This document shows, piece after piece, positions 1,630 through 38,148 of a DNA stretch of 39,969 nucleotides (position 1 is the first letter of the stretch; every line of letters starts with the position of its first letter). The notes under the pieces were generated by a model, which did not search any database, was not told the DNA's origin, and was given only the letters and a program-made list of their open reading frames with translations. The DNA is from an uncultured Bacilli bacterium (lineage in GTDB: Bacteria > Bacillota_I > Bacilli_A > RF39 > UBA660). Both the position numbers and the translations under genes were made by a program. The DNA lies in the NCBI GenBank assembly GCA_944332715.1, contig CALVKN010000009.1, positions 1-39,969 of the forward strand. The letters are read 5' to 3'.

Positions 1630-3080
1630 CTATAATCCCTCGCAATCATATCTTTATATTCCATTGTAGATTCCAGTGCATATGCAATATTTAATACATC
1701 TATATCCTTTTTACAATTACCTGTTATATTTATTCCTACTGGTAAATTATCGATAAATCCATCAGGTATCGTAATTGATGGAAAACCTCCGAAATTACCA
1801 ATTTGCAAATGTTCTTCCAAAATTGCTGTATTATCACTATTTAGTTCATCTTTAGAACCATCAATATATGGAGCAACACCAGTTGATACTGGTAAAACTA
1901 AAGCATCATAACTTTCAAATAATTCTTTCATCTTATCTACAATTAATCTTCTAAGGCGTTGTGCATTAACAAAATATCTTTCTTGGTTTTCTTTTTGTAA
2001 AATATATGAACCAATTACAAATCTTCTTTTTATTAAAGGCGAAAATCCTTTAGTTCTGTGATCCTTCATAATACTCTCATAAGTATCTCCCTTACCTCTT
2101 GGACCAAATATAATACCAGTTAAATTAGACATATTACTTGTGGCCTCAGCACAAGATAAACATACATACACACTAGGAATGCATTGGAGTAATGCCTTAT
2201 CTACAGATACTTCATCAACTGTACATCCAAGACCTTTTAACTTATCTACTGCTTCATGAAATATTTCTAAATGTCTTTTAAGTTCGTTTGATGCATCCGG
2301 ATAATTACTTATATCAACTATTTCTTTGATATAGAATAATTTTTTTCCCTTTACGTTTCCATCAATTGAATCATATAAATGAATATCACTTGAATCCCAA
2401 CTAGTTTGGTCATACTTATCGATTCCCTTCATCGCATCAACTACAATTGCGGCATCCTTAACACTGCGTGTAAGTACCCCACAAGTATCTAGGCTTGATG
2501 CAAATGGAAAAAGTCCATATCTTGAAATCATACCATAAGTGGGTTTATATCCAACAATTCCGCAAAATGCTGCAGGTTTACGAATAGAATCCCCGGTATC
2601 ACTACCTAAAGCATAAGGATAAACACCAGCAGCAACTGCTGCAGCAGAACCACTTGATGAACCAGCACACATTCTTGAAGTATCCCAAGGATTACGAATA
2701 ACCCCAGTATGAGCAGTAGTTCCAGTTCCTCCCATACCAAATTCATCTAAAGCAGTTTTATTAACACCGACTGCTCCACGGCTCTTTAAATTAGCAACTG
2801 CTGTGGCATCAAAAAATGGCACATAATCTTTTAACGTATTACTAGAACCAGTTGATAGTATATCTTTAGTAGAATAATTATCTTTAATACCATATGGAAT
2901 ACCAGATAACAGTTCATCAGTAACTTTTGCACCCTTAGCATCATCCATAATAGTTACAAAAGCATTACACGACTCTTGAACTTTTTTAGACTTTTCTAAA
3001 GATTCACTAACTAATTCATCACTAGTTATTTCGCCATTTTTAAGCATTTCATGTAATTTTTCTATTCCAAGTTCGGTCAT
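1626..3080 (-). CDS. gatA: Asp-tRNA(Asn)/Glu-tRNA(Gln) amidotransferase subunit A
   Basis: A 484-aa amidase-signature protein, the glutaminase subunit of GatCAB. The catalytic Lys is in PYGIKDN. The Ser-rich cis-Ser loop reads AGSSSGSAAAVAAG, where most GatA proteins have GGSSGGS. The nucleophile block reads GSDTGDSIRKPA, against the usual GSDTGGSIRQPA; the triad residues Lys-Ser-Ser are kept but glycines next to them are changed. It overlaps the gatC stop by one base (TAATG) and gatB by 4 nt. Function as GatA is clear from family and context; the altered loop is noted as a finding. Confidence 0.96.
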   Translation of the reverse strand: MTELGIEKLHEMLKNGEITSDELVSESLEKSKKVQESCNAFVTIMDDAKGAKVTDELLSGIPYGIKDNYSTKDILSTGSSNTLKDYVPFFDATAVANLKSRGAVGVNKTALDEFGMGGTGTTAHTGVIRNPWDTSRMCAGSSSGSAAAVAAGVYPYALGSDTGDSIRKPAAFCGIVGYKPTYGMISRYGLFPFASSLDTCGVLTRSVKDAAIVVDAMKGIDKYDQTSWDSSDIHLYDSIDGNVKGKKLFYIKEIVDISNYPDASNELKRHLEIFHEAVDKLKGLGCTVDEVSVDKALLQCIPSVYVCLSCAEATSNMSNLTGIIFGPRGKGDTYESIMKDHRTKGFSPLIKRRFVIGSYILQKENQERYFVNAQRLRRLIVDKMKELFESYDALVLPVSTGVAPYIDGSKDELNSDNTAILEEHLQIGNFGGFPSITIPDGFIDNLPVGINITGNCKKDIDVLNIAYALESTMEYKDMIARDYR

Positions 3081-3376
3081 TATCCCACCACCTTCGGTAC
3101 TTCTATTTCTCTATCTTCATATTTATCACAATTTCTAAGTAAGTCTTCAATAGGAATTGATTCTTCTGCCACATCTTCCCTTAAGACAAACTCAAAATCA
3201 TCTAAAGCATGAGTCATCGGCTCAACATCACTAATATTTGGCATATCAGCAATAATTTGCATATTAGCATCAATTATATCAAATTCTTTTAAAACTAAAT
3301 CATTTTCTTCTTTAGTTAAACCAATAAGTAATTTATCAGCATAACTATCTACCATTTCTTTTGTAAATTTACTCAT
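3080..3376 (-). CDS. gatC: Asp-tRNA(Asn)/Glu-tRNA(Gln) amidotransferase subunit C
   Basis: A 98-aa GatC, the small subunit that wraps around and stabilises the GatA-GatB interface. It matches the family in length and in its central block, in which helix VLKEFDIIDANMQIIADM is followed by the conserved DVEPMTHALD and FVLREDVAEESI. The start overlaps the end of the preceding 159-aa gene by 8 nt and its stop overlaps the gatA start, so gatC, gatA and gatB form a tightly coupled unit behind aspS1. Confidence 0.93.
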   Translation of the reverse strand: MSKFTKEMVDSYADKLLIGLTKEENDLVLKEFDIIDANMQIIADMPNISDVEPMTHALDDFEFVLREDVAEESIPIEDLLRNCDKYEDREIEVPKVVG

Positions 3377-36276: not shown

Positions 36277-36312
36277 GTAAACATAATAACACAAAAAATA
36301 GAAAAAAGAAAT

Positions 36313-36338
36313 GGCAAAATAGTGAAAATTCTGTGAAG
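36313..36338. repeat. Left copy of the IS target-site duplication
   Basis: 26 bp identical to 38123-38148, in the same orientation; one further base (T at 36339 and 38149) also matches, so the duplication is 26 or 27 bp. Such long duplications are typical of IS1202-type elements. Confidence 0.9.
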
Positions 36339-36443
36339 TGTGAATAATGAGTAAAAATGTCATGCTTTATTAAACCCAAAAATTAGCGAAAATGTCAGTA
36401 CCAATTTTTATGAAATTAGTCAAAAATGAGCAAAAATGTCATG
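36339..36443. repeat. Left IS end with three subterminal repeats
   Basis: Three copies of a repeat ending AAAATGTCA occur in one orientation, with GTCA at element positions 21, 56 and 100 (36359, 36394, 36438). The copy at 36382-36399 reads ATTAGCGAAAATGTCAGT. The last copy is part of a short palindrome (AATGTCATGTTGACATT). They are likely transposase-binding sites and match those of the right end. Confidence 0.8.
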
Positions 36444-36444
36444 T

Positions 36445-36606
36445 TGACATTTCTTAATTATATTTTATAATATTTATTATTACTTGGGGAGATAAGGCAA
36501 TGCTGGGGAGCAACCTGAGCAATCAAGTAATGCTATACAAAAAAGATATATTTCTTTTTTTGGAAGCCCAGAGCGATAAACCCTGGGGTTTGGGGCAAAG
36601 CCCCAA
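36445..36606. other. Structured non-coding tail of the IS
   Basis: No coding frame. It is richer in G/C than its surroundings and full of inverted repeats: TTGGGGC/GCCCCAA (36590-36606, directly after the transposase stop), CCCAG/CTGGG (about 36568-36586), AAAAAAGA/TCTTTTTT (about 36541-36561), and an 8-bp outer stem ATTACTTG/CAAGTAAT (about 36479-36532) enclosing a TGCT-GGGG-AGCA hairpin. It could be a transcript 3' end or a separate structured RNA. Confidence 0.6.
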
Positions 36607-37971
36607 TTATTTATATTTTTTGAGCATCATATTTTGCCTCCAAGGATGATTCATCGGAGGAACATATTTATGATGTTCTTTTTTTTCTGTTTCGATTTCA
36701 CTTTCTTTTTTCATAACAGAGTCTCGATTTTCTATTTCAGTTAACTGATAGTAATGATTTTCTATTTCACACCAAAATTCTCCATCATAATTAATTATCA
36801 TAATACACTTAGTTCCTTTAGAAAAGCAAGTTACTTCTCCGGTTTCGGGATTGACAGGTATATAATATTTATAATTATTACTTATACATGATGCGTTATC
36901 TATTATTTTATCTTTTTTTTCAGAGATAATTAATTTTAGTTCTTCTTCCGTATATGTGTTTTTCTTCATCAATGATTTGTTTTTATCTATTGCATAAGAA
37001 AATCTTTTGTTCATTTTTGGAATAAAAACATTATTTAAATAATCATTAGCTTTATCAATGTCAGTAATTCCTTCATGCCTTAGTTCAGCAATTAATCTGT
37101 TTTTAAACGTTTCATTTTCTCTTTCAACATGTGCCTTAGCAGTTGGAACACTTGTAGTTACTAATGTAATATTTAATTTTTCACATACTTTACCAAATTG
37201 AGTTAAAAACTTCTTTCTATCTACTTCTTTTACATTATTAGCAATGAATGTGCTACGATTATCCGCTTTTATTTTAGCTGGTATTCCATAATTAATTATG
37301 ATATGAAATAATAAAACATAATAGCCTCTAGTTATTTCTTCAAATTCAAACCATCCAAATAAAACTTTCTTAGTTGCTTTATCAACAGCGAGATGTAAGT
37401 ATGATACGATATCGCCAAACCATATTTTTTCACACGCATCCATTTGAACTTCTTGACCAAAAACATACAAATTGCTTGATCTTCTAGTATGTGCTTTTTC
37501 ATAAGATATTATTCTCGATTGATATAAATCGACCTTTTTACTTGATAGATTATCTTCTTTATTTGATTGTATATCTTTAATAGCTTCTTTATATGCTTTT
37601 AGTGTTTTTTTGTTTGCAATGGGCGATATAATATCATCTCTTGTAAATGTCTTTAACATAGTATCGTATGATATATCATATTTACCAAAAACAAAGTCTT
37701 CATAAAAATGTTTAAAATTAAAATCATAGAATTCTGTAAGATATAATTCTTCTAACTCCTTAATTAATTTGTCATTTTTTTTATTTAAACTATGTTTACC
37801 ATGATTACCATGAATAAATCCTTCTTCGCCTTGTTCTTTAAAAATTTTCTTTAATCTATACACCTGCCTTTCTGTTAGATTTAATAGTTGCATCGATTCT
37901 TTTATTGTAATTTTTTTCGATACTAAGCTTGAAATAATTTCATATTTATTTTTCTCGTATTCTTTTAACAT
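36607..37971 (-). CDS. ISNCY/IS1202-type DDE transposase
   Basis: A 454-aa DDE transposase. The N-terminal region carries one or two HTH domains (IKESMQLLNLTERQVYRLKKIFKEQGEEGF). The RNase H-like core follows, with first Asp in VFGQEVQMDACEKIWFG, second Asp in AKIKADNRSTF and Glu in AHVERENETFKNRLIAEL. The C-terminal 80 residues carry a small beta-domain (YYIPVNPETGEVTCFSKGTKCIMIINYDGEFWC) and a charged tail. No stop or frameshift interrupts the frame, so it is probably active. Start at 37971 with GGAGG buried in a hairpin. Confidence 0.9.
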   Translation of the reverse strand: MLKEYEKNKYEIISSLVSKKITIKESMQLLNLTERQVYRLKKIFKEQGEEGFIHGNHGKHSLNKKNDKLIKELEELYLTEFYDFNFKHFYEDFVFGKYDISYDTMLKTFTRDDIISPIANKKTLKAYKEAIKDIQSNKEDNLSSKKVDLYQSRIISYEKAHTRRSSNLYVFGQEVQMDACEKIWFGDIVSYLHLAVDKATKKVLFGWFEFEEITRGYYVLLFHIIINYGIPAKIKADNRSTFIANNVKEVDRKKFLTQFGKVCEKLNITLVTTSVPTAKAHVERENETFKNRLIAELRHEGITDIDKANDYLNNVFIPKMNKRFSYAIDKNKSLMKKNTYTEEELKLIISEKKDKIIDNASCISNNYKYYIPVNPETGEVTCFSKGTKCIMIINYDGEFWCEIENHYYQLTEIENRDSVMKKESEIETEKKEHHKYVPPMNHPWRQNMMLKKYK

Positions 37972-37976
37972 TAAAA

Positions 37977-38003
37977 TACCTCCTCTTTGAATACGAGGAA
38001 GTA
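37977..38003 (-). promoter_or_regulatory. Hairpin masking the transposase ribosome-binding site
   Basis: TACTTCCTC (38003-37995) pairs with GAGGAGGTA (37985-37977), a 9-bp stem with one G-U pair and a 9-nt loop; the 3' arm holds the GGAGG Shine-Dalgarno. A TATAAT lies just upstream, so transcripts from the element's own promoter or read-through would both carry it. Confidence 0.65.
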
Positions 38004-38017
38004 TTATAACAAACCAC

Positions 38018-38122
38018 TGACATTTTCACTAATTTTTAATATTTTTTTAGTTCTTAATTTCACTGACATTTTCACTAATTTTTGGTTTTAACAAGACATG
38101 ACATTTTTGCAAATTTTTCACA
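38018..38122. repeat. Right IS end with three subterminal repeats
   Basis: Read inward on the minus strand, GTCA occurs at element-end positions 21, 56 and 102 (38102, 38067, 38021), almost the same spacing as the left end. Two copies read ATTAGTGAAAATGTCAGTG exactly. The third overlaps the transposase promoter region, so transposase binding could repress its own gene. Confidence 0.8.
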
Positions 38123-38148
38123 GGCAAAATAGTGAAAATTCTGTGAAG
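38123..38148. repeat. Right copy of the IS target-site duplication
   Basis: Identical to 36313-36338. It begins immediately after the IS end and stops one base before the ATPase stop codon. Confidence 0.9.

Follow-up and report, generated by a model that had tools for sequence, protein, structure and literature searches.

An IS1202-related insertion sequence with three predicted transposase sites at each end and a conserved structured RNA

Insertion sequences (ISs) of the IS1202 family have 5'-TGT...ACA-3' tips with imperfect inverted repeats of ∼24 to 26 bp, and their target-site duplications (TSDs) fall into classes of 3 to 5 bp, 16 to 28 bp, or none. Elements of the ISAjo2 type have such TGT..ACA tips, code for one large DDE transposase with N-terminal HTHs, and carry an extra internal site at each end, so that there are two sites per end, an arrangement that has been likened to Tn7; they duplicate 5 bp, target dif, and have no RNA noted in the cited sections of their description (Harmer, Pong and Hall 2023, PMC10132070). 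The same source lists a glutamine seven residues after the catalytic glutamate as a family characteristic, and in its cited sections reports no target for long-TSD members. Among these, IS1202 and ISSeq2 have 27- to 28-bp TSDs and 465-aa transposases (Table 7 of PMC10132070) and resemble the element described here; no copies of either were identified in the collections searched. Tn7 and the type I-F CAST elements carry same-direction arrays of transposase sites at both ends (PMC8649781, PMC10201428), with a spacing that depends on helical pitch, and in VchCAST an 8-bp tip is followed by three sites at both ends (PMC10201428).

The window analyzed here, a 39,969-nucleotide stretch of the genome of an uncultured Bacilli bacterium, contains a 1,784-bp IS with a single IS1202-type transposase gene, which is the only gene of at least 80 aa listed within the IS boundaries. 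The ends are fixed by the TGTGAA...TTCACA inverted repeats at the tips, which match at 22 of 26 positions, together with an exact 26-bp TSD (27 bp counting a T shared with the tip); both the tips and the length of the duplication agree with those of the IS1202 family. The insertion lies at the 3' end of an ATPase gene, where there is no convincing promoter, and no second copy of the IS is present in the 1.52-Mb genome.

The transposase has an HTH_28 domain at residues 9 to 57 and matches the NCBIfam profile NF033594 (ISNCY/IS1202-type) with 262 bits against a cutoff of 250; from a reading of the hits, among which ISEsa1 is named IS1202-like, this profile appears to represent the IS1202 group. 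An AlphaFold model of moderate confidence (pLDDT 74) has its best fold matches to TnsB, IstA, and MuA, with TnsB (7svw) as the top Foldseek match and 9bw1_O aligning at Z 15.9 (rmsd 3.8, 231 residues aligned), and the modeled HTHs, RNase H DDE domain, and beta barrel resemble those of TnsB and the Tn7 superfamily. Retroviral integrase cores are close behind at Z 14.6, so the catalytic core does not discriminate between families. The seventh residue after the catalytic glutamate is K in all 14 scored members of the clade to which the window IS belongs, including the window copy, and Q in all 20 of the others that were scored, by a pattern that left 33 of 67 rows unscored. Because K replaces the family Q at this position, the window IS is a divergent IS1202-related lineage rather than a plain member.

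The ends of the IS are organized symmetrically, with an 8-bp tip followed by three same-direction copies of a repeat with the consensus ATTAGTGAAAATGTCA. A sequence-only reading had described repeats with GTCA cores at matching distances from both ends, all in the same orientation relative to the end, and TTAGTGAAAATGTCA-like direct repeats are present at these places: the left GTCA cores begin 21, 56, and 100 bases from the IS end (36359, 36394, and 36438), the right ones, on the complementary strand, begin 21, 56, and 102 bases in (38102, 38067, and 38021), and all six repeats point inward. Core offsets are thus 0/35/79 on the left and 0/35/81 on the right (Table 1). The four copies beyond the terminal ones each match the terminal cores at 12 or more of 16 positions, where shuffled ends are expected to give 0.05, and no inverted-orientation copies reach this threshold at the ends of the window IS.

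Table 1. Features of the insertion sequence and its flanks, in window coordinates
Feature	Position	Strand	Evidence
Target-site duplication, left copy, 26 bp (27 with the shared T)	36313..36338	.	Exact direct repeat
Insertion sequence, TGT...ACA ends, IS1202-type (long-TSD group)	36339..38122	-	Inverted repeat 22/26 and exact 26-bp TSD
Site L1 core (ATGAGTAAAAATGTCA)	36347..36362	+	Core matching, conservation
Site L2 core (+35)	36382..36397	+	Core matching, conservation
Site L3 core (+79), 2 bp outside the -35 box of the RNA promoter	36426..36441	+	Core matching, conservation
Promoter TTGACA-16-TATAAT just inside L3, inward-reading	36444..36471	+	Position conserved in relatives
IS-borne structured RNA, convergent with the transposase gene	36478..36606	+	Covariance model, 149 bits; covariation
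DDE transposase, 454 aa, N-terminal HTH; presumed catalytic D178, D237, E283	36607..37971	-	ORF, profile, model
Extended -10 (TGTTATAAT) of the transposase gene; R3 covers the -35 zone	38003..38008	-	Promoter scan
Site R3 core (+81), 9 bp upstream of the transposase -10	38018..38033	-	Core matching, conservation
Site R2 core (+35)	38064..38079	-	Core matching, conservation
Site R1 core	38099..38114	-	Core matching, conservation
Target-site duplication, right copy	38123..38148		Exact direct repeat

In seven close relatives, the cores are 78 to 90% identical pairwise, compared with 55 to 59% for the spacers between them. The 19-mer sites are 83% identical within an element but only 64% between elements, a difference that slot-wise permutation of the elements never reproduced (0 of 2,000 permutations, with a maximum of 68%), and in several relatives all six sites have changed together: GTCA has become GATA in L101, with GTTA in L012 and GTCC in both L015 and L016. 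This concerted change within elements and the conservation of the cores are what co-evolution with one DNA-binding protein predicts, and argue that the repeats are functional. The proposal that they are recognized by the transposase gains support from this co-evolution, and the six sites are very likely to be binding sites of the cognate transposase, as predicted from their sequences.

Relatives of the transposase were collected from related genomes, all of one phylum, and from plasmids, giving 158 elements, or 141 after removal of duplicates. TSD calling required an exact repeat of at least 14 bp, to which duplications of 3 to 13 bp are not visible; 62 of the unique elements had no TSD call, eight calls were removed by hand (L003, L066 twice, L067, L130, L147, and L149 twice), and two elements were unanchored, leaving 69 anchored insertions. 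Ends were defined for 74 elements, these being the 69, the two unanchored, and three identified by inverted repeats only, with the ends of L010, L027, and L109 moved 2 bp by hand onto the family tip; 13 of the 74 belong to the clade of the window IS and 61 lie outside it. Two genomes carry the same IS twice in direct tandem, with starts ∼1.54 to 1.59 kbp apart (L074 and L090). No close relatives of the window transposase were found in viral contigs; phage-like Vibrio cyclitrophicus records of 9 to 13 kbp (H44 to H55) have an IS1202-like transposase that ends ∼55 bp from one end of the record, and look as if they were transposons themselves.

Scripted scoring finds three sites at both ends in 12 of the 13 clade elements, the exception being L017, which has lost the middle right site and has two on the right; of the further members read by eye, L004, L103, and L105 have three sites at each end and L104 has two. 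The second site is at an offset of 34 to 35 in 25 of 26 clade ends (all except the right end of L017), and the offset of the third varies from 79 to 94. Outside the clade, 40 of 61 elements show a second site on the right, at +23 to +26, with none there at threshold in the other 21, and left inner sites are scored in just two, of which only that of L068 (at +35) looks real. In a maximum-likelihood tree of 67 transposases, the elements with three sites at both ends form a single clade of 16 (support, 100/100), with L068 as its sister (99/95). By the sequence-only reading, absence of the inner sites from relatives would refute its multisite proposal; they are retained within the clade (12 of 13 by script, three of four by eye), but 59 of the 61 elements outside it have no left inner sites.

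Both third sites are adjacent to promoters. R3 lies 9 bp upstream of the extended -10 TATAAT of the transposase gene, whose -35 is weak, bearing out the suggestion that the innermost right copy overlaps the transposase promoter. The distance from R3 to the -10 is 0 or 9 to 11 bp in 10 of the 13 clade elements by script; in L003 the script took a farther -10, with a fitting one visible by eye, and in L005 and L006 the distance is 17 bp, with a weak and doubtful -10. On the left, the distance from L3 to the -35 of the inward-reading promoter is 2 or 10 to 13 bp in 12 of 13, with L017 miscalled by the script. The two distance modes between site 3 and promoter differ by about one helical turn.

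Downstream of the promoter beside L3 is a conserved structured RNA of ∼130 nt; neither RNA nor promoter figured in the sequence-only reading. A structure derived from 18 homologues has 37 pairs with 93.2% of cells paired, whereas slid structures have 37 to 59%, a comparison that favors the structure as it was drawn from the same sequences. Compensatory double changes occur at 19 pairs, and the covariation exceeds that of all shuffles (0 of 500). On the promoter strand 46 cells are G-U pairs, whereas the other strand would have 17 such cells. Single-sequence folding of the window copy is not unusual for the plus strand (z -0.87) and gives z -2.8 for the minus strand, and the case for an RNA rests on covariation and promoters, not on folding energy. 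The covariance model detects the RNA in 21 of 95 loci searched, including every clade locus, among them L105, which was outside the model (75 bits). Outside the clade, the RNA is detected in L029 only; there it (positions 2951 to 3110) sits in a distant IS with 34% transposase identity and is inverted relative to the transposase gene. This suggests that the RNA is a module exchanged between ISs, and the inversion makes a simple antisense regulation of that gene unlikely.

Other roles for this region were considered and rejected. A guide RNA does not fit L005 and L006, which are near identical in element and RNA, yet have different flanks; a small protein does not fit L003 and L005, in which the frame is stopped (by eye); and a host housekeeping RNA does not fit its presence as one copy in the window genome and in four of 117 family genomes, bound to IS copies. 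The sole match not tied to an IS is weak (38 bits, in G674, with no transposase match). A truncated derivative, L169 (G180:C56), keeps the left end and the RNA together with only about the last 25 transposase residues. Rfam 15 gives only chance-level matches below the gathering score in 36300 to 36700, and none at the gathering score for the RNA of six loci, and the RNA core pattern was not found in viral contigs.

The 69 anchored insertions have TSDs of 15 to 17 bp (14 cases), 23 bp (1 case), or 26 to 31 bp (54 cases), the gap between 17 and 23 bp being valid only within the 14- to 35-bp range. In the short-TSD group, the sequence outside the TSD on the right-end side has G (79%), C (79%), A (100%), and A (93%) at -5, -3, -2, and -1, which on the other strand reads TTGAC, with a -10 beyond a spacer of 17 bp. 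At least five of six TATAAT letters are present at exactly this spacer in 35 of 69 insertions, compared with 0 to 11 for any other spacer length between 10 and 25. Outside the clade, a scan from -14 to +69 has the best promoter beginning precisely at the edge of the TSD in 36 of 45 long-TSD and 11 of 14 short-TSD insertions. Tightening the score to 9 or more of 12 letters leaves 39 of 59 with a promoter at offset 0 versus 0.4% at other offsets; these include 12 of the 14 with 15- to 17-bp TSDs and 27 of the 45 with longer ones, and are spread over 22 of 30 genomes or element groups. No comparable signal is seen by position scan on the left-end side, and a ribosome site and start codon reading away from the element are found on the right side in 22 of 57 versus 8 of 57 on the left. 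L073, L096, and L044 are examples in which the TSD edge on the right-end side abuts a host -35 box (TTGACA-17-TATAAT). Most long-TSD IS1202 relatives thus insert in a single orientation and duplicate the block immediately upstream of a host sigma70 -35 box, as if RNA polymerase guided insertion.

The two Enterococcus plasmid IS types, L037 and L038 to L040, have no TSD and a promoter-like sequence ∼27 bp off the right end, seen by eye, and on the assumption of a 27-bp TSD they fit the pattern by eye; in L038 to L040 this promoter-like sequence, on the right-end side, reads toward cfr(D). L073 has a 16-bp TSD versus 27 to 28 bp in its sister copies L044, L071, and L072 of the same genome, a difference of about one helical turn. 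TSD length steps of roughly 10 bp are already noted in the cited part of Kojima 2023 (PMC10045372); they are not new, and the L073 case fits them.

In the clade of the window IS, a promoter is at offset 0 in 1 of 10 insertions and within 0 to 3 in 3 of 10 (background, 6%), and the clade appears largely to lack promoter targeting, ten insertions being few. Targeting of self-like sequences, hinted at by TAGTGAAAAT in the window TSD, was rejected, as an element's own site is not found within the TSD above shuffles in any one of 10 clade insertions. Relaxed targeting, three-site ends, the RNA, and K at the conserved Q position are features of one lineage.

These observations are probably best accounted for by a new IS1202-type lineage whose transposase would bind three sites per end, with sites 1 and 2 occupied in a paired-end complex and site 3 serving mainly as an operator. 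The outermost site and the 8-bp TGT tip would position the end for DDE cleavage, and site 2, at its near-invariant +34/35, is a likely second contact in a multisubunit complex of the Tn7, CAST, or Mu kind. The structured RNA and its promoter adjoin the inner left site, suggesting that the third sites work as operators no less than in synapsis; with R3 on the transposase promoter and L3 abutting that of the RNA, transposase bound at the ends would silence both transcription units. Counting against this model, three sites are not strictly required (L104 has two per end and L017 two on the right), and most family members move with a single site on the left and one or two on the right; the weak -35 of the window transposase promoter, the almost equal scores of retroviral integrase cores, and the pLDDT of 74 also weigh against it.

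An unlikely alternative is that all three sites at each end serve synapsis in a six-site transpososome, as at CAST I-F or Tn7 ends, with the promoter overlaps being incidental. VchCAST, with three sites at both ends and a similar 8-bp tip spacing, and the near-invariant spacing of sites 1 and 2 are in keeping with it, but site 3 sits at a variable distance from the end while its distance from the promoter keeps two classes, and L2 and L3 are usually missing from elements that have no left promoter and RNA. The inner sites might instead be host-regulator binding sites or decayed inverted-repeat copies, in that the ends are AT rich and transposase binding is predicted from sequence; the concerted change of six sites across diverged hosts and their conservation above the spacers point to the element's own protein, making this highly improbable. 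As for the RNA, its region adjoins the 3' end of the transposase gene, some copies show no evident T-run terminator, and the minus strand of the window copy, folded by itself, does better than the plus strand, as would suit a DNA-level structure or an untranslated part of the transposase mRNA. That it is not a separate RNA gene is nonetheless quite improbable, given the excess of G-U pairs on the promoter strand, TATAAT-type promoters at a fixed distance, and the opposite orientation of the same RNA in L029. Beyond the operator model, we entertain as a doubtful possibility that a DDE IS codes for a structured RNA that acts with its transposase, and that in this lineage the guidance of insertion to promoters, perhaps by RNA polymerase, has been exchanged for six-site ends and an RNA that controls or joins the transposition complex.

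The window IS offers a one-protein system with Tn7/CAST-like three-plus-three ends that is much simpler to dissect than multiprotein transpososomes, and relatives with fewer sites provide a natural comparison; it also brings to a DDE element a conserved RNA without an Rfam match. For the long-TSD IS1202 group, which has had no reported target, the promoter-adjacent rule in relatives offers one, and places the 16- and 27-bp duplications on DNA directly upstream of the -35 box. Searches of the open literature gave no report of three-plus-three ends, an IS1202-family RNA, or IS1202-family promoter targeting, and the words promoter, RNA polymerase, and noncoding are absent from two key papers on the family.

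The sequence-only reading had taken multisite ends to be foreign to such ISs, a view that is not supported in that form, as two-site ends and the comparison with Tn7 are described in the cited part of Harmer 2023 (PMC10132070); it is the symmetric three-plus-three ends that appear to be new, two-site IS1202-family ends being already published. Relative to the ISAjo2 type, the window IS differs in having three sites per end, a 26-bp TSD, a structured RNA, and K in place of Q. Long-TSD IS1202 relatives share with TnGBS, ISLre2, and ISKra4 oriented insertion with the right end next to a promoter; those elements insert upstream of sigmaA promoters, belong to another DDE superfamily (Mutator-type), and have the right end 15 to 17 bp from the -35 box (PMC3942029), whereas in the IS1202 relatives the edge of a 15- to 31-bp TSD abuts it. 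The proposed likeness to Tn7-type ends stands, with an 8-bp tip and three sites per end resembling VchCAST (PMC10201428). The window IS is a single-gene element without TnsA/C/D/E-like partners, and its TSD is 26 bp rather than 5 bp. Tn7 itself duplicates 5 bp. The ends of the IS look like Tn7 ends, but the element is not Tn7.
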